From contig CAJNOJ010000143.1 in NCBI GenBank assembly GCA_905250025.1, positions 186,001 to 250,000 of the forward strand: 64,000 nucleotides of DNA, in the 5' to 3' direction. The position numbers and the translations under genes are program-made. This DNA comes from Adineta ricciae (lineage: Eukaryota > Rotifera > Eurotatoria > Adinetida > Adinetidae). The notes below the pieces were generated by a model. It did not search any database. It saw only the letters and a list, made by a program, of their open reading frames with translations, and had not been told where the DNA came from. Below, piece after piece: positions 2,004 to 54,804 of the stretch (within the stretch, counting starts at the first letter, position 1; every line of letters starts with the position of its first letter).

Positions 2004-5000
2004 TCAACAGAAACTTGTCCATGACAATGGTAAACAAACTGCGCGTGGTGAACAACATGAATTAGTAATGCATATCGAAGTGCTTGATGTACAACGATAC
2101 GCTGTATTGTTGCACGCCTCTAATATTGAGCAGGAAATACCGGGTGCACAATAGCTTGCATTATTCGGTGCACGATAGTCAAAACAAGGCCTTGGTGATA
2201 AAACGCAGGTATTGTTGTCATTGTTGATGTTAGGTCGACACTGTTGCAGCGAACAATATGATACTGAGTTCCATGCAGAATGAGAAGATGATGATAGGGT
2301 GAATTCAACGGCAGTATCAGTTTGGTTACAAACGACATTAGGCTTTTGAGGTGTCTGACCTAAAACAAAAGAACGGCCGCCATATTGCAAAACTGCAATA
2401 TATCCATAAAAGATATTTACTAGCCATTTCACAATACCGTCCTGTTCGACCAGGTGGACATGTACAAGTGAATTGTGTTCCAACAGCAGTACATACAGCA
2501 TTGTTTAAGCAGGGTGATGGAGCACAAGGATTCACTAGCATTGCACAATCGACACCAGTCCATTGTGCTTTGCATGTACACGTATAACGGCCATCAGGAG
2601 TTGATACACAGGTTCCTCCAATCAAAGTAATAGTACAAAATTTTTTCGAAATTTCGTTTTCAGACTCACCCTGATTCTGACATGGTGAAGCTCTGCATGG
2701 TTCGTAAATACTACAATTAATGCCGCTATAACTAGACTGGCATAAACATGTGTATGTATTATTCAAGCCTGATAGACAAGCGCCATGTGGCGAACAAACG
2801 TTCAGACAGCAGAAATCAATAGACTGACAGAATGGACCCGTATAGCAAGCACTACAATTACAATTGACCGTCCCATTGTCGTACCTTGAGCAGATGCCAC
2901 CATTTAGACATGGCGATGGTGCACACCAATCGACTATAGAATGCAAGAAACAAACAATATCACATTTGATTGAAGAATCTCTTTTCGATACTACTTTTTC
3001 GACAATCGAGAATAATTCCAGAGAACGTAGATGTTCCACTACACCACGGAGAGCCAACATCAACAGTGGTGCATGTTGTATAATTAACGCCCTTATAGGT
3101 AAACGGAAAAGAACAATAGCTCATATTTCCTACACGAAGCAAAATCATTCATTTATCATGAATACGTTAGTATGTGACAAACCTGATGCAAGAGGCGAAC
3201 TAGTGTCATTAAAAGACGCTTGATATTGACCAATACTCCAGTTTGAGTTAACTTTATTCGCCAGTACAACATCGAAGTCACGCAATGAATAATTTCTTGT
3301 CGTGACAAATATTGTAACTTCACCCGACGGCCTATAATAAGTTTTTGAATGATCACTTTATCTATTTTTTCATTTAATCTTACCGAATAGTAATATTACT
3401 AGCAAAAGCCCTGCGATTTGTCATATCCATTATTGTTTCGTTCATATATAAGATTAACAGTTGATTGTTTAGTGTCGGTTCATTTGAATTGTAATTGAGG
3501 AGGTAAATTCTATAGGTAGAATTCGTCAAATAATAAGACTCGCATTGACGTCCGTAGTATGTTGGTGGACATAAACATATGAAATCTTCTATATCAGCTT
3601 GGTAGACACAAGTACCCTGATTTTGACAAAGTGTCGAACCGCTTTGGCAAAGATCTAGATAAATTCGACATCATAGCAATTTGAAAGCAAAAGTGACATT
3701 TCTCCCTACATTGAGTTCGACAATTGCGACCTAAGATCTGCGTTAACTCACAAAAACACGTCCAATTTGTATCGGATGGTAAACAATGTATTGGAAAATC
3801 CGGCGTACCATTACATGGGTTTGTCATATTCAAAGTTTCGCATGCAGTATGTTGTTGTGTAGGCAAACCAGTCGAGTCGCATATTCTACGATCAGCTACT
3901 GTATAGTTTTGTCCATACGCACAATAAGCATTCCCGTCTATGGTCATATGACATACTGATGATTGTTTAGTATAGTATTCATGTGGTAAAGTACAATGCG
4001 GAGCAGCTAAATCAACAGACAGCCATAGAAAATATACATCAATTGTTTATTTCGAAGCTTACCATTCAGCGGTTCAAAATCGCTGATATCAGTGAGACTC
4101 GTGTTGTCATACACTAACTTGAAGTAAGGTGGAAGATTAGCAAGAATGGGCTGAATAGTATCATAAATCTGTCGTTGAGTTATATTACCGGCAAAAGACA
4201 TGTCAGTGGTAATCTGGATGAAATTGCCTGTATAAGTTGAAAAACTAAATTGATTCAAGATGGATATTTATAACAAGTGTCGATCCTCCTTGAACATACG
4301 TAGTGTACATTAACGGTGAAAAGTCAAAACTTGAGTTGGTTTGATTACGAACCAAACTCCGGAATAAATTTGTCAAATTCTGATAAGTTTGGGTTGTAGA
4401 CGATTCCAGAGCATTTAGGGTAGTCTTCGACATATCTGGAGCTTTGAATCTAACTTTCGCTCGAAAGTAAGCTAAAGATCAACTCTTCAATAAAACAATA
4501 CAATTACTTTTTAAATAAAAAATCTTACTGTGCGTACACAATCTTCCAGTAAAGCCAACGTTACACGAACACGTGAATGTTGAAAACAGAACTCCAAATG
4601 TATATCGCATAGATGGAATACAAGAGCCATATCTGCATGGTTTCTGTTTACAATAGTCGACTGAAATACAGCTATGCTATCATATCTTTTTCTCAGGAAA
4701 ATACTGTTCGTACTTTGACAACTATTTGGCCGACCTGAAGCACTTTTACACCATGGGACAGTTCCATTCATATAGTCATTGCTTGTTATACAACTATTCT
4801 GCGATTGATATTCATTGTCGATAAAAGGGAAAACACATCCAGTGATATCTGAAAAGAAGACCTAAGAAACATATCAACGGTGACATTTCTTACTATGATG
4901 ACAATAGATTCCTCCATAGCCCGGAGCACAATTACATTGATAAGAACCCGCTGATAGAACAACACATGTGCCATTGTTCAAACAATTCATATCATTGCAT

Positions 5001-5695
5001 TGCGATACTAATTTTAAAAAAATAATAAAAGGGTGTGTAGCTCATCATTACAAAAATGGTGTATAAATAGACATACATTGATCGCAGTTTGCACCTATGA
5101 TACCAAGCGAGCATTGACAATAAGAGTTCGGACCGTTCCGAACACATGTGCCACTATTTTGACATGGTGATGAATTGCAGAATTCTGTGGGATATTGGTA
5201 TCGTTCGCGTCCTTGTTTTTGTTCCATTTCTATTGGTGGACTTTGAATATATCTCATTGTAGCTCTATCATTCGAATAGAATATTGTTGCAATGAAAATA
5301 ATTGATTCATTCAATGAATTCGAATGCATCCAAAAAAAGGTATATTGTGATTGATTTGCGCTTAGCATAAAAGAATCTTCGTTGGTTACTACTTGTTCTA
5401 ATGATGTTGAACAATGAATTACCTGACCATCCGTTGGAGTGAACGGGTGCCATAAACCTAATACTCTCGTTGAATCACTTGCAGCCATAACAAACCATGA
5501 TATGTTAGAAGGAGTTTGTTTTCTTACGAGTTTGACTTTGATGATATTTGATGATGGAGCTTTTTCGAATTCAATTGTATAATTCTCATCTGTGTTCTTA
5601 TTTGATCCTAACAAGTCCAAATCTGAACATGGAGTAGCGTTCGAACAATGTATTACGATATGAACTAGAAGGTTTATAGCTGCCAGTAAAAACAT
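2004..5695 (-). CDS. Secreted modular protein: Reeler, EGF-like, FN2, SEA-like domains (copy A)
   Basis: A multi-exon gene starting with a signal peptide (MFLLAAINLLVHIVIHCSNA) at 5695. The first exon continues with a Reeler-like beta domain, about residues 22-165, with the typical FFWMHSNS...IIFIATIFY strand pattern, followed by an EGF-like module. Later exons encode, in order: an EGF module (about 5007-4870), a fibronectin type II-like module (GCVFPFI...PWCKSASG), another EGF, a SEA-like domain (about 4470-4070), a Cys-rich segment, an EGF, a second FN2 (SFPFTYKGVNYTTCT), several EGF modules, and a Cys-rich C-terminus ending at 2004. The first intron maps to 5008-5076 (69 nt) and restores frame across the exons. 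An intron near 2640-2690 differs in length between the two copies while exon frame is kept, which supports the model. No membrane anchor is obvious. Likely extracellular matrix or adhesion. Some internal exon borders are not pinned. Confidence 0.75.
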
Positions 5696-6305
5696 GATTA
5701 AATAGCAATCCTCCTCTGTAAAGGTACAACTAAATATTCGAAAAAGGAACAGAAAGAGTATTTTCGATCGATAATGGTTTATTTATTACCGAAAAGAACA
5801 ACATACAGCCTACTCGATGAGAAAATAATTATATGAAAGAAGTTCTTCTCCATCTAGATTTCTATTTCATTGTTTGTATAAACGAACCTCTGAATTCAAA
5901 TAGAAGGTATGTTCTATTCCAATATAAAATCTTCGGGCACTATTCACATGTTGTTTTCCTATGTGTTGTATATTCGCTTGCGAAAATCTCTAAAAAGATC
6001 CCATCTGATAAATCGTTCTTCTGTCAAGAGCAAACAAGATAAATTATTAATCGAATGTTGTATTGTATTTTTTATATTCGCAGCATTCATGACTTCAAAC
6101 ATATTAAGCAAAATGGGCTATGCTCGAAGCTTGCGATTGAGTATAAACATAGTCACTGGTGGAATGTTCCAATAGGTATCGTTTTCTATTTATCAACGGA
6201 CTACTATATTTCAGACAAAAATGAAAGATCATTATTTGTATAGTTAGTAGTAACAAATCTTTTTTTCATAAAAAAATAACTAAAATCCTAACCAGTCTTG
6301 TCATC
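5696..6305. other. Intergenic, no gene seen
   Basis: AT-rich spacer between the 5' end of the Reeler/EGF gene and the 3' end of the NHL gene. Short plus-strand frames here are not conserved in copy B in a coding-like way. It presumably contains the Reeler/EGF promoter. Confidence 0.5.
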
Positions 6306-7835
6306 TTAGTCAAGAGTAAATTTTTGCACTCGATTATTATTCTGATCGACAACATAGAGAGAACCATCTTGATCAAATGATAGACCAACAGGATATTGAA
6401 ATTGATCCGAATTGTCACCACGCCCATTTCCACCAACGATTATTACGCCCTTCTTCGCATTGTACGCCCAACGCACTATGCGATGGTTCCAACTGTCAGC
6501 TATGTAAATATTACCGAACCGATCAACAACTAAACCCTGTGGATGATCTAAATTTGAACGTGAGTCACCTTGACCATGGCCACCTGCAACGAGCATGCCT
6601 TTCATAGCTCCGTCTACCCACTTCATAACGCGATTATTATGGTGATCGGAAACATAGACAGAATGATCTTGATCGACAAAGAGTGCAGTTGGTGAGTTGA
6701 GTTGGTTAGGAAAATCTCCCTTTCCATTTCCGCCAGCCACAACTGTTCCCTCTGCTTCACCTGTTTTCCATCGTTTGACTTCATGCCTTTCGCCATCCGA
6801 AACATACAAACTACCATTGTCATCGATCGTTAAACGAGAGCAGTAAATGTTCGGTATAATTACTTGAGGACTTCTGTCGCTCCGATGAAACCAGCGTACA
6901 ACACGACTATTGCCACGATCACATATAATTAAAGAATCATTCTTTTTATCGACAATAACATCTGTTGGACGATCCAATTGGTTGAGTGCTTTACCAGGTC
7001 CGTTTCCCCCTGCCACGATTTCACCATTCATCGCATTAAACCGCCATCGAACAATACGATGATTATCATGATCAGCCAAATAGATCGTTCGATCGTCATC
7101 ATCCACATAGATACCACGAGGATAAGCTAGTTGGTTCAATTTCGACCCTCTGCCATTACCACCTGCAATCATGATTCCATGTCGTTTCCAGACACTATTA
7201 TTATTGATATTAATCGACGGTAATGGTTGTTCTAAAGAATAAGAAGAACGAGGGAAGATCAACAATCGTCTTAAATCTTAAACGAACATAAACATACGAG
7301 AAGAAACAGTAACAAGAATCTTGTTAATTAATGGCGTTGATGTATGTTGTATAGTTACAACTGACGATCGATCTAATTCCTCTACTAAATGGCCTAATCT
7401 ATCCTTAGACTCTTCTAATTTCTCTTTGAACTGATTGATATCCATTTCGTTGAAATCGTCTTCATGACGCATAGCTTCTATTTGATCCGTTAATCTTACC
7501 AAATGCATGTCGATTTGATGAATATCATTCGAAGGATGTTGAGATAGAATTTGTCGACATTCGTTTGCTGTTTGTTGAACTAATCGAATGGAGTCGTATT
7601 CCCATTGATCAATTTGACGAAGCAATAGTTCATTATTTGTTCGACTAATTTGAAAATTAAGGGCTTGCCGGAAAAGACTATAGTTACTATAGACATCTTC
7701 GAGTTGTTTGTTTAGCTCCTGATGATGTTGAATAAAGTGAGTGTAGCAGAAATCTTGTAAACAACCAGTACATTTCGATGTTGCGCGTTCTTTGTCACAT
7801 CTGACACAATGTGATTTTCTTAAGCCTGATGACAT
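6306..7835 (-). CDS. B-box-like zinc finger, coiled coil and NHL-repeat protein
   Basis: Two exons joined by a 66-nt intron at 7232-7297 (GTATGT...TTCTTTAG, strong pyrimidine tract), which puts QQPLPSI in frame. The start chosen is the ATG at 7835 (MSSGLRKSHC), directly before the zinc-binding motif; the frame stays open upstream to 8003 but is hydrophobic and looks like UTR. Residues about 8-45 have a B-box-like Cys/His pattern (CxxC...CxxC...CYTH...HH). Residues about 45-160 are predicted coiled coil. The rest is a six-blade NHL propeller with repeated AGGNGRG, LNxPxGIxVD and DxxNxRIVRW motifs. This is TRIM-NHL-like without a RING, a layout common in bdelloids. It may bind RNA or proteins; the partner is unknown. 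Copy B of its 3' part is at 63649-64000. Confidence 0.85.
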
Positions 7836-8388
7836 CGCGAGAATCGAATAAGTCGAAGCCGATTCCTTTTCTAAATAATAATAATAACAAGAGAGAAAAG
7901 AGACAACAGCGCCGCACTCTGTAAACACGAAAATAACAAGATAGTTCAATGTCAACAGGTATCGAAATGCAGTAATGAGTAATTGACATATGCATTCATT
8001 CAAGCGTTTTTACCATTCTGTTCCATCGAAATAGAATGTGTGCGTGAGTGCGTCAATGAAAGAAAATTAATTTTCGTTCGTTTACTTTTCTCAGCGCATA
8101 CGGTAACACTTGCATATGGATAAATAAGAGAACTATATCAAAATATTTTCTCCGTTCTTTGAATTCAGAAGGTAATAGAATGACAAAATATTCATGTATG
8201 TATCAATAAAATAATAATGATACAATCAAGGCCAATGGTTTTTTTTCCATAGAGTTATGTAGCTAAAAGTTCACAGTTGAAAGAGAGAGAGGAAGACCGC
8301 GTGAGAATTGATTGATGCGAGAAACCAGCTCTTATGCTTTATTTTCATCAAAATAGATACATACAATGAAATTTTCATTTCTTCAATT
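7836..8388. other. Intergenic, no gene seen
   Basis: Promoter side of the B-box/NHL gene and 3' flank of the next minus-strand gene. It has a short GAGA-like tract near 8283. Nothing else is supported. Confidence 0.45.
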
Positions 8389-10464
8389 TCATAGGTCACC
8401 TAGTTTACCAGCGGCCTTCCACCATTGATTTTGCGGTAGATTCTTAGGGTGTTCGTCAGTAACACGAAACATCAATCCATATACTAGAATGCCATTGAGA
8501 GCACCAATATTTTGACCAGGTTTCCAATGAACAACCCATTCTAGCACATCATTCGAAAAATTTGGATCAGCTTTTTGTTTATCGTGTGGAAATGCACCAG
8601 GAAGTGTTCCGGGATATTTTTCAATAAGCTTCGGATGCACTCGAACTTGTAAAACCATTTGAACGTACTTCGACTTAATCTGTACTATTTTTGCGTAACG
8701 TGGATGTCCACTGTATTCGATGCTTGGACTAAGGTAAACTGCACCATGGTTCGATCTAAGAAAACATCCTTGTCCACTGGCACGCAGGCCATTGAGAAGA
8801 ATTGTCATTGCTAACGCCCCTGCTGTTCCATGGTAGGCTACCGGCCAACTTCCATATTGTTGTTCGAACTGTGCACCAGTCATACCGACATCTATGGCAT
8901 ATCGACGCCAACCATTTGGACAGTAATACGGTTCACTTCCTCTGTTTAAACTTTGGACGAATGATGTTGCTATGAAACCGACTGCCGTCTCTCGTCCATC
9001 ACGACTGTATATTCGGTTGAATGCTGGATTCATAGCGTGTCGAAATCCGTTGAGACCAAAGTTGCCAATCAGAACGCTGCGGACATTAAGATTAGCGAGT
9101 TTTGAAATGATTTTTGCGATCAAATGAGGGATATTTTCCGAGATTTCCACTTCCAGTGTGACTATTTTAACATCGCCGTTGATTCGTACTTTTCTTGATC
9201 GGACATCCTGAAAATTTCTACTAATATCGTTCAGTACATTTTCGGCAGTTCTATGACTAACGGATGAATCGAGTACAAAGTCGAAGCATAGAATTCGCTT
9301 TCCATCAGTTGGCAGAGGTAATTGACCATATGCAATACATGGTAGCAAAGATGCGCCATTAGTGGGATTTGCTTGAGTAGCTGCATTATGAACAGTTCGC
9401 GTGACCGCTTCCGTATGTTCTTGTAACAGTTCGGGTTTGTTCAGAATCACAGCATACAGAAATTTACGTACCCGTTCTAATTCAGACAAGACGACGCTTT
9501 TTCCTAGCATAAATGTTCGATCAGATGGCAGCATTTCGCGTATTTGCTCGATCCATTTGTTAATACAGAATTGAAAGTGTACAAAGTCGTCTTCCAAACC
9601 GTGATAATCAAGAAATTCTTGTAATTCTCTATCAGATGTTCCCGTTTTCGTCACATAGTCAGTTAAATAGTTCGCAACGTTACTGAACCAATTAGGTTCT
9701 CCACGGCATAATAATCTTGAATGTCTCCTCATGTTTTCACCGACGTTCAAGGTTGGGAAAAATAGCGAACCGATTAATCCTACCGGTTTTGATACAAAAT
9801 CCCCTGCTTTACCAGCGCGATTCGCTAAACCAAGTGTATATCTGTTGGCAGCTTGTATTCCTACTAATTTTTCTTTCAGTGGTTCGAATACTTGACGGAT
9901 ATCTTCTGCTATCTCTTTTGCCAAAGCAGTGACTTCTTCAGGTCTGTCGCTAGTGGATCTTCGATTTTGACGATTGAAAAACTCCGTCACTCTTTGATCA
10001 ATGGTTAAATCATCATTATCGAGAAAATTGAGGGTATCATCGCTCATCAAAGTTTCAAATCCGGATTCGTGTAATGTTGTAATCAAAGAACTGACTCCAA
10101 GTCCATTAATATAACTGAAAAATCTGCGCAACGCCTGCATTAATGTAAAAACTGTGGTAGCCTGTTGCAAAGGTCGTAGCTGATCTAACAGGTTTCTTTT
10201 GTATTCGTTCAGCTTTTGCTGAGTAATGTGATGATTGAAAACATCGACAAATCTATCTATCCGCGTGCGAAGTTGTGGAAAGAATTCCATGTCGCCTTGT
10301 TTCAACATTTCTTCGAGTATATCAGAGCTTGCAGCTGTGTCATTCAGTTGAGCCATAGTGGATCGATAACTTTTATCAAGTGACAAACGAAGGATTCGAT
10401 TCGGCGATACTTTTTGTATAGTACTCTGCTTGAAATAATCGTTGAAAAACTTATTTATATACAA
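8389..10464 (-). CDS. Large protein with C-terminal PARP/ART-fold-like domain
   Basis: A single open frame of 691 residues; an alternative start at 10356 (MAQLNDTAAS) is as likely as the first Met. The N-terminal 350 residues are helical with no family I recognise. Around residues 390-470 there is an alpha/beta segment (LCFDFVLDSS...). Residues about 505-680 contain PNGWRRYAIDVG, then SWPVAYHGT, then a Gly-rich stretch and GAVYLSPSIEYSGHPRYA. The YHGT and AVYLSPS pair matches the His and Tyr positions of the H-Y-E NAD-binding cleft of PARP-like domains. I cannot place the third catalytic residue, so it may be inactive, mono-transferring or only a fold relative. Intronless, unlike most neighbours. 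Function otherwise unknown. Confidence 0.65.
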   Translation of the reverse strand: MYINKFFNDYFKQSTIQKVSPNRILRLSLDKSYRSTMAQLNDTAASSDILEEMLKQGDMEFFPQLRTRIDRFVDVFNHHITQQKLNEYKRNLLDQLRPLQQATTVFTLMQALRRFFSYINGLGVSSLITTLHESGFETLMSDDTLNFLDNDDLTIDQRVTEFFNRQNRRSTSDRPEEVTALAKEIAEDIRQVFEPLKEKLVGIQAANRYTLGLANRAGKAGDFVSKPVGLIGSLFFPTLNVGENMRRHSRLLCRGEPNWFSNVANYLTDYVTKTGTSDRELQEFLDYHGLEDDFVHFQFCINKWIEQIREMLPSDRTFMLGKSVVLSELERVRKFLYAVILNKPELLQEHTEAVTRTVHNAATQANPTNGASLLPCIAYGQLPLPTDGKRILCFDFVLDSSVSHRTAENVLNDISRNFQDVRSRKVRINGDVKIVTLEVEISENIPHLIAKIISKLANLNVRSVLIGNFGLNGFRHAMNPAFNRIYSRDGRETAVGFIATSFVQSLNRGSEPYYCPNGWRRYAIDVGMTGAQFEQQYGSWPVAYHGTAGALAMTILLNGLRASGQGCFLRSNHGAVYLSPSIEYSGHPRYAKIVQIKSKYVQMVLQVRVHPKLIEKYPGTLPGAFPHDKQKADPNFSNDVLEWVVHWKPGQNIGALNGILVYGLMFRVTDEHPKNLPQNQWWKAAGKLGDL

Positions 10465-10729
10465 TGGGAAAGATTATTTGTGTGTTTTATGTGTGATTTT
10501 TCCAGCACTCTTATCAAGGGACACCATGGTACTTATCATTGATGCAATAGTACAAAGATAAAGTATAAGACTGATAAAAACCCACTACGCACTTTTTCTT
10601 CAACGCAAATAACGAAAGACAATTTGAATTTTCCTTTGAGTCAATCTTTTATTTTCGTTAGGTTTATTGATTCAATTCCGCTGCCCTACATGCATGACAG
10701 CACTTTGGCGAACCATAAAGAAACATGTG

Positions 10730-12069
10730 CTATACAAAAAATTTTGAAGCGAGACATAGCACTAAAGCAGTGGCCGTATAATTTTGACAGACACCAGTAT
10801 TGTTTAATCCTCGACGCGTGATATAGTATACAGCAAATGTACCTAACCAATGTCCTCCTTCATAGTGATTCTCATCGATAGCGATCAATCCAGCCCGAGC
10901 ATTTCTTTCACTCAATTCAAGTAATTGATCACGGCGTTCTCTCTGTTTACTGTCCGAAGATAAACCATCGACAATTCCTTCCAACATCCATGCACGACTT
11001 AGACATAGACCAGCAAGGTGAATTAATTTCGGATCTGTTGGATCAGCAATTGACGGTGGTTCGAGCGTAGATGGAAGGACATTCGGCGGAAGGAATTCAT
11101 TGAACCATGCGACAAAATCTTCAGATCTGTCCTTCATCACACGACGTAGTAGATCAGCTTCAGCTAGACCAGCCGAAAGAAAATCTTCACCAGATGGTTC
11201 ATATGGGAAAGGATAATTTTTATCAGCAATAAAATAATCCGATGAACGTCGCTCGATCAATTCAATGAATGCAATATTCTTCATTCGACGAGCATAATCA
11301 AGTATGAGACCAAGTGCAAATGCAGTTTGGCTATGTTCACCGCTACGTATAGGATATAACAACTTTGGAAGCCAAGCAGAGAGACGGGTGACAATCAGTG
11401 TTTCCAATGGACGTAAATTCTCTCGCCATTGACGAATCTCGTCGACGTTCTGAAACATATTCGAAAATCGAGAATCTATAGATGAACGTTAGCTCGAGTT
11501 ACCTGTTGTTCTTCATTAGCCCACTCATCTAACTCAGTAGCTAATTGCAAAAACCACGCTAATCCATAAGGTCGTTCGAACGAAGACCGTTGGCTATTGC
11601 TGAGATACGCGAATTCACCTTGAAGTTTTTCTTTTGTAAGACTTTTCGCTAGCGCTTGACGACATTCTACTGAGAGATTTGCATCGACTCGAGCTAGACG
11701 AGCCAAAAGCCAATGACCATGAACAGCCGAATGCCAATCATAACAACCATAAAAACTCGGAGTTAAATCTCGAGGCGCTTGAATATCGGCATCGGATGTC
11801 AGAACATGACCGATTCTAGTCGGATATTCTTGATGAACACACGCTAGAGCAAGCGAAGCAAACCGACGACGCATTGTAGCCATATCTGCATTCGAAACAA
11901 ATCGTCTTTATTCGATCATCGAAATTAACTATAGATTATTGTATTAATTTTTACCTGTTACTGAGTCATTGGTATTTATTTTGTGTTCGAATAATCTTTG
12001 TTCGATACTTGGCGAAGAAGTGATCACGACTGTAATTGTCAAGAGGAGCAAAAAATGAATGCTGGTCAT
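10730..12069 (-). CDS. DUF2891 family protein with eukaryotic signal-peptide exon
   Basis: Three exons: 11955-12069, 11503-11885 and 10730-11449, with introns of 69 nt (11886-11954) and 53 nt (11450-11502, phase 0); the spliced product is 405 residues. Exon 1 encodes MTSIHFLLLLTITVVITSS, a textbook signal peptide, and a short linker. The body matches bacterial DUF2891 (PF11199) as I know it: CYDWHSAVHGHWLLARL, SFERPYGLAWFLQLA, TAFALGLILDYAR, PSGEDFLSAGLAEADLLRR and a C-terminal HWLGTFAV. The repeated His, Trp and Glu suggest an alpha/alpha-barrel hydrolase-like enzyme, but no activity is established for the family. The family is essentially bacterial, so this looks like an acquired gene that gained introns and a secretion signal. 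The last about 20 residues after the domain are unmatched. Confidence 0.88.
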
Positions 12070-12997
12070 CATCACGTATCAAAAACAAATGACAGCAGTA
12101 TATTTCGTCTATTCCAGTCAAATACTTCAAATGAAGACAGTAATCATACTGTCTTATCAAATTTTCATATACGACATAAAAAAATTATATAATATACTTC
12201 AATGATATACGAGAGCACTTTACTATTTTATCATATGTTTTACGAGGGGAAGTTGATGGATATCTTCATTTTCTTTTTCGTTCCAGTTAACTTCAATTGT
12301 AGATACATATATATGTACAAAAAAAAACAGCGAGAATGAGATAATATTAAGAAGAATCAATACCGCCAAGTTATACAGTACATATGTTTGTTTTTTGCCT
12401 ATGAATGATAAGAATACAACTCGTTTTGAAACTGATTATGGACTTGTAGTCATGTTCTCCTTCACCTGTATAGTCAGAGTCAATCGAAAATTCATTCTAT
12501 ATCATCAGTAACTCTGTTTTTATTGATCTAGAAGAGCAGCAAGAATGGCGAAATTCGAAATAGCGTTGATCAGTTCTTATCGATAGGATTATCGATATTT
12601 TTGGAGTGGTTTGATTATCATTTGACAGGAACGATATTTCACAGTACAGAATTCAAATACTTTGATTTATGCCTTTTCATTTGCTTTTCTTATTATTTAA
12701 CATAGATATCGCATTATAAGTATAGTTTGCGAAATTCTTTTTCGAGAATATGTAACTTACGATGTTTTACGATTTTGCAACTTCGCAGAAGTCACGATAA
12801 AGTGTCTTCTATCGTCGATTATTCACTCAATTCTTATCTAGCTTATACATTTATTTACATAATCTGTTTTAAAAATACATCGAAAAGCATAGTACTGAAA
12901 TGTACTCTACTACTCAACATAGATTGATGCTTCTCGACGTTGCTTAAATGATTATCTTTGAACAAAAATAAAAACAGAAGATTATTGATAAATCAAA
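12070..12997. other. Intergenic, no gene seen
   Basis: About 930 bp of AT-rich DNA between the DUF2891 start and the VWA gene stop. Small frames on either strand have no domain signal. It includes the DUF2891 promoter side. Confidence 0.5.
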
Positions 12998-14269
12998 TCA
13001 GGAATAAGTTGGATAATTTCCATGAAAAGAATTGTAAATTCCAGAATTCCATTGTTGTGAATTGTTCAATGTGACTTTCTTTTCGTCCAACTGATCGAAA
13101 AAACTGTCAATACCACCCATGAGAATTTTCACTACGTACTGTAGAACAAAAGACAATGATTAAGAAAAAAAAGAAACGATCGAATAAGTTGTACACTCAC
13201 ATCACCAAAGCCAAACGGAAAATCTCTTCCCTGACATGCTTGAATTTCTTTCCTTTCACTTTGATAATCATCGACGACATCAAGATTTGGAATTTGTTTA
13301 TCCCAATCATTCAGGTACGACATACTGTTGTCATCGTCTGAGATTCAGAAAAGCAACGTCTCAAATGTGAACTAAATATTTCTCATTTACCTGTACAAGC
13401 GATAATCGTCACTGGAATTTGATTAGTAGGTCTGCGTTCATTTCGAAGTACATGTTCGAGAGTATGAATATCTGGCCGTTCACGTTCGTCTGTTGGTACT
13501 CCATCAGTGGCAAGGAGTATTAATAAGTTACGCTCATATATCTGATTACGTTTATCGTGAAGTACTTGTCGGAAAACAGGAACGATAGGTGTGGAACCTT
13601 GAAGAAAAGGTACGTGTTTTATGTGATTGAGTTTAATATTTTGCATAAATCAATTTTTCAGTTACCTTCTGGTTCCAAAGCGAAAATGGTTTCGAGTTCA
13701 GAAGAATTACGTACGTGGAACATCGGTTCCCGATTAAGGAAATAAACATCAACACCGTCCGGATCAAACACACTGGCAAGATCAACGACAATTGATACTG
13801 TTTGCTTCAATTCATCCCCTACACATGCAATCAAGTTCATCTGATATCTGTCAATGTCAGTCGACCCTTACAACGTGTTCTTTGTTGTTCATGTGGGTTA
13901 TTGTTTGTTCCTAAAGCATCAAAGATCGTTCCATTTCCAATCTCCATCAAAGAAAATTCCACTTACCGAGTGGTGCAGTCATCGAACCAGAGTCATCGCA
14001 TATGAAAACAATTTCATAGCCTTTCAATTTTCGTAATCTTTCAGCGAAAGTTGGATTGACTAAATAGATTGAAATGACGATCACCGTTTTCGAGCAAATA
14101 GTGACCTACTTTCATAACGTCTGACAAATTCATCGAGACCAGGAAGTGGTTCTTCAGATGGTTGCGGATAATTCCAATTTGTCTGTTGGTAAGATGATTG
14201 AGGATCGTTCACAACTGATTCGTAAGGCGGAGGCGGAGAAGATGGTTTCTGAAGATTGCGCGAGTCCAT
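12998..14269 (-). CDS. VWA-domain protein with proline-rich N-terminus
   Basis: A multi-exon gene. The start at 14269 gives MDSRNLQKPSSPPPPYESV, a PPPY-containing proline-rich head. After an intron comes FAERLRKLKGYEIVFICDDSGSM, where DxSxS is the MIDAS metal site of a von Willebrand factor A domain. Later exons give the helical part, LLILLATDGVPTDE (the TDG metal-coordinating motif), a TIIACTG strand, and a C-terminal tail through VVKILMGGIDSFFDQL to the TGA at 12998. Introns are about 50-80 nt. Cytosolic VWA proteins with this proline-rich head and LRKLKGYE lead-in are frequent in fungi and protists. A role in protein-protein assembly is inferred from the domain; the partner is unknown. Confidence 0.8.
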
Positions 14270-15002
14270 TCCAACACTAATAAATGAATGCTGGATAATA
14301 TTTGTTCGGAGTGTTGATCCTCTCCAGAGAAAACAAATAATGGTATTGAGTGAGAGCGTATACAAGGCAACACGTTTCAATCTGTTGCGCAGGGAAAAAA
14401 ACCAAAGGAAGAAAAACAAATTCGAGTGAAGAATAATGACGTTTAACAGAGTGCAAATATGACGTGCGCGCGATTTGAATAATTCTTCTTGTTTCTGTTG
14501 AAGACAGTTCTCTCCCGTCGGAAGTAATAAATTTGAAATTCGAACGCTTTGATTTCTACGCAATTCAATTGCATACAATTTTCGATAGAAGATTTTTGTA
14601 GAAAAAAGTTCGTTATTTACATTGATTATTCATTCAACTTCTCGATGTTCTTTTATCTAATTGGTCCTTCATGTCAAAGCAAAAATAGTACAAAAGATCG
14701 TTTCTTACGGTGCATATGAGTATTAGTTGACTCACTTATAACGATCAGTATGCTACCATAGTTATGCTATTCTCCTCCGACTACTCACAGATGTCTCTAT
14801 GTGCCGTGATGTACTGATACGAAATGTGTACGTTTAAACAATATCACGAACGTATTACAGGTTGCAATTCGATCATTCAACATGATCGGTGAATAGATTT
14901 GTATAATTTTGAGCAAAAAAATCAACCCGTTTGTTTCAAAAAGTATTATACAATCCAGATTAAAGATATTTGTTGTCAATTCATAACAAACAGGCGTTTT
15001 AA
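14270..15002. other. Intergenic, no gene seen; ends at foldback element
   Basis: Promoter side of the VWA gene, then sequence that before the foldback insertion would have been the 3' flank of the helicase-ligase gene. No supported coding sequence. Confidence 0.45.
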
Positions 15003-15387
15003 TATCGATGCGAAGCTAGCACGAAGGAGCTGCCACGAATAAACGATGTGATAGCTAGAAATTTTTTTACTAAACAAGTCCGTCCCTGAAAAATATACCA
15101 TTCGACTCAGAATTTAATTCTGCACCGAATGGTCATGTTTCTACTCACGGAACAAACTTCGGACAAATTTTGTTTGGATCATGAATAGACCTATCGGAGG
15201 CAAGCAAAGATATATCTAAAAATTTTCCCAAAGTTTGTTCCGTGAGTAGAAACATGACCATTCGGTGCAGAATTAAACTCTGAGTCGAATGGTATATTTT
15301 TCAGGGGCGGACTTGTTTAGTAAAAAAATTTCTAGCTAACACATCGATTGTTCGTGTCAGCTCTTTCGTGCTAGCTTCGCATCGATA
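15003..15387. mobile_element. Foldback (MITE-like) element, 385 bp
   Basis: Two inverted arms of about 165 bp, roughly 95% alike by eye, surround a loop of about 50 bp. The outer ends are perfect (TATCGATGCGAAGCTAGCAC). It is flanked by the 7-bp direct repeat GTTTTAA at 14996-15002 and 15388-15394, read as a target-site duplication. It has no coding capacity. The right TSD copy contains the stop codon of the minus-strand DEAH-RBR gene. The superfamily cannot be named from the ends alone. Confidence 0.9.
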
Positions 15388-15390
15388 GTT

Positions 15391-18300
15391 TTAATCAAGT
15401 TCGTCAGCAACTGTATCGTTATCCAGCATTCTGTTGTAGCATGGTGAATCAGGATCGGTAAAATGTCGATGGACTATTCGAATAAAGGACAAAGAACATA
15501 TATGATATCTGATTAACATGAAACCTTACTATCCGTATCGTCGGTTGCTAAACATCGCCAACAGAATTGAGTATTACACAATGTACATTTGACTGCATGA
15601 CACCCGGCATATTTATCAATCGGTGTTCGACATTTCGGACAAGCTTTGCAAGTTGATTTGCCGAGATTATATTGCAAAATCGCATCTTCGTCCTTCTCAT
15701 TATGTAGTTTTTGAAATTGTTCACACGTCATACCGGTATGGTACTCAACTTCGCATGGTGTACAATACACTTTGATGCATTGATCGCAAAAATACATCGA
15801 TGAACGATCCGATAGACGATATACCTACACAAGATCGATGAAGACAAGCACAGAAACAAATCAAAGTCATCTTTACCTGTTTACAATCAATTCCCATACA
15901 TTGTGCTAGGTTGTTTTCACCTTGACGAATATAGATTTGGAATGCGATCATTGCTAGACGCGTCATTCGTTCAAAGCCAAGTATCGAAACAATGTCACGG
16001 ATGAGACAAACTGCATTACAGTTTTGCAGTGGACACGACAATTTAAAAGCATCAGAACTGATCGTCACATCGAAATACGTATCGAAGTAAGCGGTTAAAC
16101 ATGAACGACAAAATGTATGTCCACACTGTTGTAGTGCATAAGGAGAATCAAAGTCACAGGCACATATTGGACAAGTGTTTGTTGTATCTGCCGACTTTTT
16201 CTCATCGACATGACTTGAAAGTTGAGAAAAATTGTCCAGAAACTGTATCACTTTCTGTTCACAACTTGTCACTGCGTCCCGGTCGCCGGTTATTGTAATT
16301 ACGTGTTTGATTACATTAACCACTACTGTTGTTTTCTTGTTATTCAACTCGCGGAATTTTTTTGCATTTTGTATGCATAGTCGAATACAATCTGTAGAAA
16401 TGCAAGATCGAAAATTGATATTCACCCGAGAAAAATTATCGATACCGACTTTGAGGAATTGGAATTGATATGGAGTGTCCGCGTTGAGTGATATTCTCTT
16501 GAATGTAAGAGCCTATCTGCTTGTACGCCTCTTGGCACGCTTCGTCTTCACCAAATATCCGTAGAAAAGTTGATTTCCAATTCCACCAAATATATGTACT
16601 TGTACGATACTGAAGATCGCTCAAAAATCTTTGTCCAGCTGTATCGAAAAGTACCGTCACCTAGGATGAATGCAATCAATGTATAAATTCTTTCGTAGCG
16701 CGAACTTACCCACGAATGATCATATAGTTGAAATTGCAAACCTTTCAAAAGATTATCGAACAGTAATCGTGCTTTATACGATTGTTGAAGATTCGATCCT
16801 CGAATAGATATTAGAACATGCGATTTATCATACAGTGTAATCGGCTTTTTTAGCAGATTTACACTGGAGTAAGTAGAATCTTCTTTGATAGTTTTGATGG
16901 TCTGTTCGATTTTATTGTCGATAGCTTGAGCAAGTGTGTCTTGAAGCACAATTCGATGTGAAACGATAGGAAGGAATTGAAGTTGATTAAGTTCAGTTCT
17001 TTCAATGGCAGCACTATCCAATGACTCGCACAAGCTGATAGCTGTGATAATTTCACGAGGATCATGAAAACGAATGTATGCGACAGCGCGTCCATCTTCG
17101 GTCGGTGAACGCAGTTCGATTTCTGGCTCGGAGAAAAGTTGAATTTGCGATTCGAATAATGATTTGAGTTGATTCATTGCCTTTTGATTATCATCATCGA
17201 TCGTTCGCGAACGATACGAAAAATAATCTCCAGGTAACTTTTTTCGATATACGATTGTATACGTGAGTGCGCCACTAAGGTTACAACTATCGAGCAGATC
17301 GGTAAGAAATTTTTCATCAACATGACTTGGTAATCGACTGAGTCGGATGCGAAATTCATCTGTTCTCGATTCGTTTCGTTTCGTCGTTGCATTCATTTGT
17401 CGTTGTTCTTGAATTTTGACGCGTAAGATCCCTGTGCCCATTTCAAGCTTCATATCGTCGAGGTCACTGGCTATTTTTCGCATTTCTCTTTCGTCAGTAA
17501 ATTGTACATAGGCAACAACTTGACCATCATGAAGATATGGTTCTATAAAGGTTGATTGAGGTTGAAATGACGTACAGGTATCGAATAGAGATTGGAGAGT
17601 AGCGTTGACATCAGCTGGTGTGGCCATCATGACGTTTTTTCGCGTTCGAAGTATTGAAATATTCGTAGAATCAGTAAAAATAGTTTTCAAATTGGTTTCA
17701 TCCAGATTTCGTGGAACATTTCGGACATAGATTGATACATTCGATCGTCGACTAGGTTCAATACGAAATGGATATTCATAGCGAGCTTCGATAGCCTGAA
17801 AAGAATAGAGAACTCATAATAAATCGCATTTCTGTAGAAGTTTACCGCTTGTGCCTGCTCAACTGTAGTGAAATGAACAATGGCATGTCCGTGATGAGGT
17901 GTCAGTGGCCATGAACATCGGATGGTTGGATTGACAGAGCTCATTTCGAATTGACAGAAAAAATGATGTCGTCGCGTGAATATTTGATACGCTTGTTGCG
18001 CTGCCTGAGCTTTACTAAATGTCACTCGTCCCGTACATTCAGAATCTGTCAAATACCATTGAACTTTCAGTGTATAATTTTGGCGTTTGCTATCAACTGA
18101 TGTTCGAGTGAAGCTTGGTCTGACCTGTATCACGTAATCATCCCATGTTTCATGTGCTAGCTCCTTAACAGCTGTATGTGCAGCGGCACATTCAGCAAAA
18201 GTAACCGAAGCTGAAATACCGTTTTGATTTCTTCGGATAAGTGTCACATTACGAACTGAAATATTGAAATATAACTATCATAGTACGAGTTGATCTGTAA

Positions 18301-50991: not shown

Positions 50992-52629
50992 TCAGATTAT
51001 GATTGCTCGAAGGCGCGACCATATTGTAGAATTTTCCATTTCAATTTCGTTTTCGTGCGGTAGACGACGACTAGTCCAAATGTCCATTTCAGGTGCATGA
51101 ATCCATCGCGTTTTCCACAAATATTTGTATACGAAAAATAGAAGTAGAAACACGGGAATGAGAATATACGAGACAGTAAAGGTAACTAGATCAAACGATG
51201 GAATTATACTAGTATACCCTTGAAAGAAAATCAGAAATATATTGGCACCAAGTCCAAAGTAGGCCCCATATGGATACCACAGCGCTCGAAATGGTAAGTC
51301 CTTTATATGAACACCTTGTGCTTTTAATCCGCGACGGAATTGGATATGTGTCAAACATATCACTGCCCAAACGATAAATGTCGAAACACCAGAAAGATTT
51401 ATCAAATATGTATAAGCAGTGCCTATTCCACCGGGCCCTTGGTTGATAAAGCATATACACGCACAAAAATTACTAAAAACAATTGCACACCAAGGAACAC
51501 CACGTTTGTTAGTTGTACTCAGAAATTTTGGTGCTCGTTTCGTTTTTCCCAAATAACAAACGGTTCGTGATGTAATATAGATGGAAGACATTCCCGCAGA
51601 TACAACAGAGACGACAATAAGTCCGTTGATAATGTGAGCAGCTACACGAATACCGGCGTCTTGAAGGGAGATAGTCAATGGGGATGCAGCTGTCTTGGAT
51701 TGAGACGAAAGAAGACGAGATGAATTATACGGAATCAAAAGACCAATAAAGAATATGGTACCGAGATAGAATATTATGATACGCCAAAACACTTGCTTAA
51801 TTGCTCGAGGAACAGCCCGTCGCGGATTTTCGCATTCACCCGCTGTAACGCTGACCATCTCAACACCTGCATAGAGTGTGCCAGCAATGACAAAAACTTT
51901 AGCGATACCATTTATACCATCAGCAAACGAACCCGGATTATTCCACAATTGCATACCGATACGGTTACCACCGATAACTCCAGTATCGATGAGAATAGCG
52001 AGAACGAAATAAGCAAGAATAGCCAAAACCTTCATTGAGCTAAGCCAAAATTCAATTTCCCCATAAACGAGTACACCAACTAGTGATAAGGCAAGGAAAA
52101 TAAACCACCAAAGAACGATCCATGCCCATTGCGGTACAATCTGAATCCAGTACATGATAACAATCGATATGGCATTATACTCATTTGCTAGTACTGTTAT
52201 CCATAGGTACCAATAGATCCAACCGAGAGCAAATGACAAGGCAGGATCGCAGAAACGGCCAGCAAAGTCCATGAATGCGCCACTCACAGGAATGGCTGTT
52301 GAAATTTCGCCGAGTGACTGCATCACAAAGAAAACGATGACTCCAGTAGCAGCAAAAGCAATTAAAGCACCTGCAGGACCAGCATATGCAAGTGCTGTCC
52401 CTGAACCGACGAGAAGACCAGGACCGATAATACCACCAATAGCCATCATAGTAATATGTCGACTTTTCAAATCGCGTTTCAGTTTCTCATCGCCCGGATC
52501 ACGATGAGACGTCATCGGATGAACAGTAGATTGCATTTCTTCTTGTAGATGATACATTTCTTCGTGAGAACTTGCAATATGTTCTAGCATGAAATAAATT
52601 GTATTAGTATGTTTCGAACATTCAGACAC
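50992..52629 (-). CDS. Fungal-type amino-acid permease (APC superfamily, YAT/AAT family)
   Basis: 545 residues without introns, about 12 membrane helices. After a hydrophilic head come LKRDLKSRHITMMAIGGIIGPGLLVGSG (the signature first helix), SLGEISTAIPVSGAFMDFAGRFCDPALSFALGWIYW, GGNRIGMQLWNNPGSF, GTLYAGVEMVSVTAGECENPRRAVPRAIKQVFWRI and WYPYGAYFGLGANIFLIFFQGY. All are hallmarks of yeast and filamentous-fungal permeases (GAP1-like group) and bacterial relatives. Animals normally lack this family, using SLC7 and SLC6 carriers instead. It should import amino acids with protons across the plasma membrane. The absence of introns and the fungal motif set point to acquisition from a fungus. The first Met is the longest option; MYHLQ or MTSHRD could be the true start. 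Confidence 0.88.
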   Translation of the reverse strand: MSECSKHTNTIYFMLEHIASSHEEMYHLQEEMQSTVHPMTSHRDPGDEKLKRDLKSRHITMMAIGGIIGPGLLVGSGTALAYAGPAGALIAFAATGVIVFFVMQSLGEISTAIPVSGAFMDFAGRFCDPALSFALGWIYWYLWITVLANEYNAISIVIMYWIQIVPQWAWIVLWWFIFLALSLVGVLVYGEIEFWLSSMKVLAILAYFVLAILIDTGVIGGNRIGMQLWNNPGSFADGINGIAKVFVIAGTLYAGVEMVSVTAGECENPRRAVPRAIKQVFWRIIIFYLGTIFFIGLLIPYNSSRLLSSQSKTAASPLTISLQDAGIRVAAHIINGLIVVSVVSAGMSSIYITSRTVCYLGKTKRAPKFLSTTNKRGVPWCAIVFSNFCACICFINQGPGGIGTAYTYLINLSGVSTFIVWAVICLTHIQFRRGLKAQGVHIKDLPFRALWYPYGAYFGLGANIFLIFFQGYTSIIPSFDLVTFTVSYILIPVFLLLFFVYKYLWKTRWIHAPEMDIWTSRRLPHENEIEMENSTIWSRLRAIII

Positions 52630-53919
52630 ATAAAAAACTAATCGAAAAGATGACTTATATAATCAAAAAAAGTATACTTTTTTTATAACATACGAATGAT
52701 ACAAAGTAATCGCTCTCTTTTTTTACTCCTTCATACACATTCAAATTCTTGGTATGTAAAACCTTTATCAAATATATGCGATGAAAAATAACATACCCAT
52801 GATTTGTATTTTGTCCACGTACAAAAATGTGCTAAATATGTATACTTTTGTAGTCTTCGTTCATTAACTGCAGTATCCAAACATGTACACAAATACCCGA
52901 CTAGTACAGTCAGTGACTAATGAAAAGATCAACATTTTCTTTCATCGTTTTTTTGCCATAAATAAGCACATGTTCGACTTCCCTCGGTGATATATGCATC
53001 GAACATAGAGTCAGCCAATAAATAAATCTATTTACTCCTCATTGTCATTCATTTAGAAAAGGAAGGGACCATGATCATGGCAAATGCATAACTAACGAGT
53101 TGCTGCTGGTTATAACGCATCTTTATCATATTGTATTGTCATCAATAACATGGAATACAGAATATAGGAATAGGAAAAACACTAAATTATATGTTACAAT
53201 TTTTATTGATAATAGAAACCATTTTTCCAATAGCTTAATGAAATGTCATGAATGGTTATAGCAGCGGTTGTTGACACGCTTCCTCAATTATCAATCACAC
53301 ATGAGCAGAATATTGATGTTCAAAATCATGTCCAAATATATTTGAAAAATATCATGTACGCATCTGCTGGTATTTTTTCCTTTTTCTGTTCTCTCGAGAA
53401 CAACGTGCTTGCTACAGCAGAAAAAGAAAAAGGACCTTTGCTTTCTGTCTTCCTCTCTTTCCTCGTATAAGGATGACAAAGCGTTTTTTGGTTGTCACAA
53501 AGCTTAGCATTGATATTGTGCACGAATGAATCTTATATAAGGTCAGTTATTTTGAAAGACTAACGATTTCGAAAAATGATACTTAAAGGAAGTTTTTCGA
53601 TCAATTTCGCTTGTGTGAACCTCAATAGAATAGCAGCCGGTTTCTATTGCTCTTGATGTTTATCATCACGAATTCCATGTTTTTGTTATAGTAGTGTGTA
53701 TCAGGTATTTTTTGGATTCGCACACGATAGAAGCCTAGAATTTTATTTTAATTTTTATTAAATGTAGTATACGATTGAGATTGTCCTAATGTGCTAATTA
53801 AAATAAAGAGCGAGAGGAGCTTGTCCGATAGATGGCATCACATTGTTCTTTGATAAAAGATAATAATAATCAATTTTATCGTTTGACTTATTGAAGATCG
53901 TTGTAAAACATAGATCGGG
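52630..53919. other. Intergenic, no gene seen
   Basis: 1.3 kb between the divergent permease and SDR genes. Overlapping frames on both strands at 53252-53523 have no domain features. No repeat recognised. Confidence 0.5.
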
Positions 53920-54804
53920 ATGTCATCGACACTACGAACAATTACTGCTGCCAACGCTCGTATTTTATCGGCATTGAACCCACCACCAAAGGTTGTTGTA
54001 GTCGGTGGCACTTCAGGTATTGGTCAAGCTATTGCTCTTGCCATAGCTCAACATTGCCCATCGGCTTCAATCACTATTATCGGACGCAATGAATCTGCTG
54101 CTAACACCATACTACCCAAATTAGGGCCGAATTCAAAGTTCTTACGTGCTGATGTGTCACTTCTGTCAGAAGTTCGAGCTGTGACACAAAAGATTTCTGC
54201 AGTAGACATGTTAATTATGTCACAAGGTGTTCTGACAATAGCTGGTCGTACTCCTACAGCAGAAAATATTGATTATAAATTGGCCTTACACTATTATGGT
54301 CGGACACTGTTCGTCCAAGAACTTCTTCCACTACTTCGTTCATCGCCTAACGGTGGTAAAGTTTTATTCATTTTGGATAGTAAAAATGGTAATCCATCAA
54401 AAGTTAACTGGAACGATATGGCTCTCGAAACGACATATTCTTTGGCTTCAGCTGCTAATCATGCTATTTCGTTTACTGATCTTGTCATACAACATTTTGC
54501 ATCACAACCTGAAAATGCCAATGTTACATTTACTCATGCATATCCAGGTGGAGTACGAACGACATTAGTTGATAATCTACCGTTCTATCTTCGAATACCA
54601 GCGAAAGGCCTTCTGGCAATGGGCGTTGGCATTAGTCCAGAAGAATGTGCTGAATATATGATACATGGTATTCTGGGAACAGATAAAGGTTGGAGATGTG
54701 TCAATGAGAAAGGTGAAAACATTTCAAAGAAGAAACCAGCACAGGAAGAATGGATTACAAAAGTATGGGAACATACATCTCAAATGATTTCTTCAAAACA
54801 TTAA
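53920..54804 (+). CDS. Fungal-like short-chain dehydrogenase without the usual Tyr-Lys pair
   Basis: 294 residues, one exon. KVVVVGGTSGIGQAIALAIA (TGxxxGIG-type NAD(P) loop, about 24-43), ITIIGRNES, FLRADVSLLSEV and VDMLIMSQGVL (in place of NNAG) define an SDR fold. At the position of the YxxxK dyad the sequence reads YSLASAANHAISFTDL, so the Lys, and possibly the Tyr geometry, is lost. The same feature occurs in fungal hypothetical SDRs that this resembles. HAYPGGVRTTLVDN is the PG-T cofactor loop. It probably binds NADP(H); catalysis is doubtful or uses other residues. Origin from fungi is inferred. Confidence 0.8.
   Translation: MSSTLRTITAANARILSALNPPPKVVVVGGTSGIGQAIALAIAQHCPSASITIIGRNESAANTILPKLGPNSKFLRADVSLLSEVRAVTQKISAVDMLIMSQGVLTIAGRTPTAENIDYKLALHYYGRTLFVQELLPLLRSSPNGGKVLFILDSKNGNPSKVNWNDMALETTYSLASAANHAISFTDLVIQHFASQPENANVTFTHAYPGGVRTTLVDNLPFYLRIPAKGLLAMGVGISPEECAEYMIHGILGTDKGWRCVNEKGENISKKKPAQEEWITKVWEHTSQMISSKH

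Follow-up and report, generated by a model that had tools for sequence, protein, structure and literature searches.

A 64,000-nt stretch of contig CAJNOJ010000143.1 (C143) of the bdelloid rotifer Adineta ricciae, positions 186,001 to 250,000 (the window), carries on its minus strand, at 12072-10730, an intact three-exon gene of the DUF2891 family (PF11199; Table 1). Once the exons are joined by predicted splicing, the gene reads as a single open frame of 406 amino acids. Both introns, which lie where the initial annotation had placed them, have GT..AG borders; for comparison, passages of PMC5916493 give median intron lengths of 55, 58, 67 and 61 bp in four bdelloid species. The start reads ATGATG, with the first ATG 3 nt past the end coordinate of the initial annotation, and a further in-frame ATG at 11883, in exon 2, could be used by an unspliced transcript.

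Table 1. Features of the DUF2891 gene and of the block that holds it (positions in the window)
Feature	Positions	Strand	Length and borders	Content
Exon 1	11955..12072	-	118 nt, ends in phase 1	Codes for residues 1-39 plus one base of codon 40 (putative signal peptide, then linker); same in second allele
Signal-peptide-like stretch	12007..12072	-		Residues 1-22; hydrophobic core FLLLLTITVVI
Intron 1	11886..11954	-	69 nt, GT..AG, phase 1	
Exon 2	11503..11885	-	383 nt	N-terminal part of DUF2891 domain
Intron 2	11450..11502	-	53 nt, GT..AG, phase 0	After residue 167
Exon 3	10730..11449	-	720 nt including stop	Remainder of DUF2891 domain
C-terminal tail	10733..10798	-		Residues 385-406, partly hydrophobic
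Block holding the gene	2660..17156		~14.5 kb	93.4% identical to C143:246000-260499, same orientation; the latter holds the second allele

The body of the protein matches the bacterial family over its full length, as had been noted initially: residues 47-375 cover positions 2-324 of the 325 in the PF11199 profile (E 6.6e-116; 387 bits against a curated cut-off of 25). Of 53 alignment columns conserved in 98% or more of 109 bacterial sequences, 52 are likewise conserved in all four DUF2891 copies found in the rotifer genome. A DUF2891 chain with solved structure, Campylobacter jejuni CJ0554 (PDB 8IEU, 8IEV), is a sequence match of one of these copies (on contig C551; E 8e-63), and we propose that the rotifer product is an (alpha/alpha)6-barrel enzyme with no reaction assigned; past the proposed fold, we make no claim of kinship with GH88/AGE enzymes. 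Relative to CJ0554, the window gene adds two introns, a putative signal peptide, an insertion of 6-7 residues and the C-terminal tail. The insertion, inside which intron 2 sits, is common to the four rotifer copies, where this region measures 24-25 residues, versus 18 in 103 of the 109 bacterial sequences. The tail is missing in the two copies at the second rotifer locus (described below) and in the 13 bacterial proteins aligned; it could possibly act as a membrane or glycosylphosphatidylinositol (GPI) anchor.

Exon 1 encodes a signal-peptide-like stretch that is in frame only after removal of intron 1, a prediction of the initial annotation with which both the exon join and the second allele agree. 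Mean Kyte-Doolittle hydropathy over the 11 core residues is 3.09 in the window copy and 3.25 in the second allele; cleavage presumably follows this stretch, at a place we guess by the -3,-1 rule. Two one-intron, in-frame upstream models were found for the gene, differing only in the starting ATG, and both include the hydrophobic core. With 4000 random anchors in the window, a hydropathy of at least 3.0, a line placed near the observed value, was reached by 24 (0.6%), at least 2.5 by 87 and at least 1.8 by 309. The window copy would be secreted, judging by sequence.

Two allele pairs at two loci

The genome (130 Mb in 1033 contigs) has four DUF2891 genes, which make up one allele pair at each of two loci that are not syntenic. 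Both members of the window pair are on C143, the second at 254.1-255.4 kb, where three exons, both GT..AG introns and the signal-peptide-like start are kept, with no gaps in these five segments. The two C143 copies are most simply alleles. The 93.4% identical blocks that hold them lie ~57.3 kb apart on the contig in the same orientation, an arrangement that could reflect alleles joined by the assembly or a large direct duplication. The other pair, on C551 and C100, has uninterrupted domain open reading frames (ORFs) that lack intron 2, and proteins from the two loci are 69-70% identical. Nonsynonymous and synonymous divergence (dN, dS) were 0.0188 and 0.123 within the window pair (dN/dS 0.15), and 0.0073 and 0.130 within the C551/C100 pair (dN/dS 0.06); by these ratios, both allele pairs are under purifying selection. 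In the C100 copy (L011, at ~236.27 kb), but not in its C551 partner, a stretch of 10 codons within the conserved GCFDWHSAVH motif is duplicated in tandem.

That the two loci arose as syntenic copies (ohnologues) is not supported: blastn of the window against C551 (its full 46.9 kb) and a 100-kb stretch of C100 returned only the DUF2891 gene. At the protein level, 169 window ORFs compared with the same stretches gave as extra matches only weak 7tm_1 and ART-type ORFs, at 23-29% identity. No two tandem TGTGGG units, looked for as a sign of telomere nearness, were present in the C551, C100 and window stretches compared.

A coding extension ahead of the ORFs on C551 and C100 was rejected, the frames being broken differently in the two alleles. 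In the same upstream region, a candidate hydrophobic exon precedes a putative intron that matches window intron 1 in phase and acceptor place. With the acceptor fixed at that place and phase, a two-allele model arose at 26 of 28,072 background positions, in a test for which the candidate had been seen beforehand and the hydropathy line of 2.2 was set by the lower of the real values. The candidate exon ends in an unusual donor, GTTTAT, and by eye an earlier donor, which would leave out the hydrophobic core, is possible. Given this prior sighting and the weak donor, we treat the sharing of exon 1 and intron 1 with the window copy as a suggestion. If the exon is real, exon 1 and intron 1 would be older than the duplication, and the paralogue would be exported too.

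Probable bacterial origin, animal setting and predicted export

The initial annotation had pointed to a phylogeny of DUF2891. Run with bacterial members (113 rows, 109 of them bacterial), it grouped the four rotifer rows as a single clade (Shimodaira-Hasegawa-like approximate likelihood ratio test, SH-aLRT, 100; stem 0.81). A more careful tree of 66 rows separated the rotifers plus 51 bacterial rows from 11 outgroup rows with support of 100/100. Both trees contain bacterial and rotifer rows only; four of 113 bacterial proteins were omitted, and among the 109 kept, L111 and L034 represent one gene. Bacterial members were gathered through two query motifs (at least 80 loci), and the set is biased toward relatives sharing either motif, with 30 rows coming from the sample of one phylum (42 of 149 genomes positive). 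Phylum labels are unsure because many bacterial rows are contigs of metagenome-assembled genomes. Identity between the rotifer proteins and their closest bacterial rows is 59%.

The position of the rotifers is less firmly fixed. In approximately unbiased (AU) tests, a topology joining them to a seven-row Acidobacteriota/Verrucomicrobiota clade gave p 0.495. Weighing against their placement among the mostly exported family members, a topology that holds the 51 bacteria together without the rotifers was not rejected (p 0.334), and nesting within these bacteria is therefore not established. A single donor phylum was also considered; the two trees and two AU tests leave that choice open. We nonetheless consider a bacterial origin of the rotifer gene highly probable on sequence grounds, and one old transfer followed by duplication would fit best.

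The gene resides in an animal chromosome, and genome content almost certainly marks the host as a bdelloid. It shares contig and strand with ORFs that have NHL-repeat, 7tm_1 (rhodopsin-type receptor), helicase-associated and ART (ADP-ribosyltransferase) domains. The nuclear-receptor ligand domain had 38 matches in the host genome versus none in 14 control genomes, and the N6_N4 methylase family (N6_N4_Mtase) had two; bacterial-type N4-methylcytosine (4mC) methylation is reported for bdelloids (PMC8885841). In passages of PMC5916493, candidate transferred genes make up 11.7-14.5% of bdelloid genes and are, in the four bdelloids treated, mostly old and shared. The DUF2891 gene resembles such horizontally acquired genes in its bacterial type, short introns, animal-type neighbours and allele pairs. 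The literature searched, judged by titles and passages, made no mention of DUF2891 or PF11199 in rotifers. One algae paper gives PF11199 for ice-binding proteins, presumably by a misprint.

Bacterial relatives are themselves mostly exported by our measure: 84 of 106 passed an export-signal filter, a hydropathy rule of our own applied after seven of 113 proteins had been omitted as cut or distorted. Among the 22 that failed, about nine are clearly signal-less by eye (L030, L033, L062, L067, L071, L084, L113, L137 and L139). In the seven-row candidate sister clade, L027, L119, L065, L130 and L132 passed, while L030 and L033, both Acidobacteriaceae proteins, lack an export signal within a clade of five filter-passing rows. 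The rotifer signal could not be aligned with any bacterial signal, and the original one may have been replaced. Because 84 of the 106 relatives, including five of seven in the candidate sister clade, pass the filter, export is probably ancestral, that is, older than the transfer to rotifers. The gain of a signal-peptide exon, as initially proposed, is therefore not supported; what was gained is probably the introns, one of which now separates signal from domain. The broader proposal of a domesticated bacterial transfer stands as far as the bacterial-type protein, animal chromosome, short introns, signal-like start in frame after predicted splicing and protein constraint are concerned, and lacks support where it took the signal peptide for a later addition.

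5-Oxoproline genes beside bacterial relatives

Bacterial DUF2891 genes adjoin three different gene sets for 5-oxoproline: one with OPLAH, one with an Nramp-type gene and PxpABC, and one with DUF969/DUF979 (once together with Pcp and PxpABC). At five Acidobacteriota loci (L032, L039, L042, L052 and L087), DUF2891 is followed by an OPLAH-type oxoprolinase gene and, at a greater distance, an Nramp-type gene, a second arrangement of genes for using 5-oxoproline. All seven loci of a Hyphomonas-type clade have an Nramp-type gene and PxpA downstream, with PxpB and PxpC at six, the seventh record being short. DUF969 and DUF979 precede DUF2891 on a Kosakonia plasmid; DUF969, DUF979 and Pcp do so on a Streptomyces plasmid, where PxpABC is nearby; and DUF979 is present at a short chromosomal locus (L113). 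Overall, an oxoprolinase gene occurred at 12 of 79 loci, and in a census of 108 of the 203 neighbouring ORFs, hydantoinase/oxoprolinase domains ranked first among families, at 4 of 108.

Published work, seen in passages of the papers cited, links several of these genes to 5-oxoproline. PxpT, which is Nramp-like, is required for 5-oxoproline use in Corynebacterium glutamicum (PMC13274462); its Bacillus subtilis homologue, YcsG, is reported as a manganese importer (PMC10448178). In a preliminary test, a C. jejuni cj0552-4 mutant (DUF969, DUF979 and DUF2891) no longer grew on 5-oxoproline (PMC12795558), and a table of halotolerance-linked gene clusters gives oxoprolinase, DUF969, DUF979 and DUF2891 under numbers 113 and 115-117 (PMC10040529). 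DUF2891 stands in or beside the known bacterial sets (OPLAH; PxpABC with PxpT; DUF969/DUF979 with Pcp), a likeness by neighbourhood only. The rotifer genome has matches to Hydantoinase_B and Peptidase_C15.

Several observations speak against this link. The 12 loci with an oxoprolinase gene are confined to two clades, the other 67 of 79 having no such gene in the flank examined, and one of three plasmid loci inspected, that of Agarilytica (L138), was without any 5-oxoproline gene. The C. jejuni authors credit the DUF969/DUF979 transporter, not DUF2891, in passages of PMC12795558. In that species the DUF2891 gene is grouped with DUF969 and DUF979, whereas the rotifer genome gave no match to either, a lack that also rules against transfer of a whole operon. 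Argued from analogy with these neighbourhoods, a role of DUF2891 in 5-oxoproline (pyroglutamate) salvage has, in our judgement, an even chance of being right.

Proposed history and alternatives

We favour an account, with a probability of roughly 0.6 for the whole, in which a DUF2891 gene from a mostly exported part of the bacterial family was acquired once, long ago, by the bdelloid lineage and then copied to a second, non-syntenic locus. On the animal side the gains would be an insertion specific to the rotifers, with intron 2 inside it, a further intron (intron 1) that perhaps predates the duplication, and the C-terminal tail. The signal peptide of exon 1 would direct the (alpha/alpha)6-barrel enzyme, with its probably ancestral export, into the secretory path or out of the cell. 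There it may release or convert a 5-oxoproline-related compound, which cytosolic 5-oxoprolinase would then make into glutamate.

Two alternatives concern exon 1. The gene might have arrived in cytosolic form and later gained the exon from animal DNA, shifting its place of action. Such a gain would suit an exon-intron border that falls at the bacterial domain start, the signal-less L030 and L033 of the candidate sister clade, and a rotifer signal that does not align with bacterial ones. We think it unlikely, given how many bacterial proteins pass the export filter, most of that clade included, and given that the paralogues may carry a similar exon at the same place. Alternatively, exon 1 could be noncoding, with a cytosolic protein starting at ATG 11883, or both forms could be made by keeping or removing intron 1. 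That ATG is in frame, a stop lies upstream of it when the frame is read unspliced, and the C551/C100 ORFs can begin near the domain without an upstream exon. Exon 1 also diverges as introns do, which tells against a secreted product: the alleles differ by 5.1% in exon 1, no less than in intron 1 (4.3%) or intron 2 (5.7%), compared with 2.9% in exon 2 and 4.6% in exon 3; four of the six exon 1 differences change an amino acid, leaving exon 1 by itself without clear constraint. On the other side, the upstream exon is more hydrophobic than 99.4% of random anchors, and the second allele retains the hydrophobic core with no frameshift, so that we rate a start at 11883 slightly lower still than a gained exon.

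The remaining alternatives concern function and descent. The product could be a sugar-active hydrolase or epimerase like its fold neighbours, which would make the adjacency to 5-oxoproline gene sets incidental. The weaker fold matches reflect only a common arrangement, which is also a caution for our own assignment, and we consider a sugar substrate improbable, on a par with a gained exon. Vertical descent, in which an old eukaryotic DUF2891 gene was lost in most animals, would be compatible with AU tests that leave the exact rotifer position open and with a comparison set that is bacterial. It is very hard to reconcile with the 59% identity to bacteria, a single rotifer clade against 109 bacterial rows, an intron-poor body at one locus and the richness of bdelloids in transferred genes, and we give it very little weight.

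Returning to the favoured account, we put forward more tentatively, as a doubtful extension, that the animal took over an exported 5-oxoproline salvage enzyme, possibly held at the surface by its C-terminal tail, that releases or converts extracellular compounds of the pyroglutamyl or 5-oxoproline type and thereby supplies the host's 5-oxoprolinase. If this is true, DUF2891 would add to the pyroglutamate pathway an enzyme class that is new and has an (alpha/alpha)6 toroid as its scaffold. The links to 5-oxoproline gene sets offer a concrete substrate to assay for an uncharacterised family with a solved structure. The account also orders the steps as transfer, insertion, perhaps intron 1, duplication, intron 2 and allele split, and intron gain in a foreign gene is therefore testable across bdelloid species. 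By bdelloid standards the gene is of an ordinary kind; the new elements are its history of four copies, an insertion where intron 2 sits, and a lead toward 5-oxoproline for the family.

Three uninterrupted ORFs elsewhere in the window were also noted. An ORF of 694 residues adjoins the DUF2891 gene (8389-10473, minus strand; no Pfam match at E 0.01). A 556-residue amino acid permease (PF00324, E 1.3e-130) lies at 50992-52662 on the minus strand, and a 296-residue short-chain dehydrogenase (PF00106) at 53914-54804 on the plus strand.
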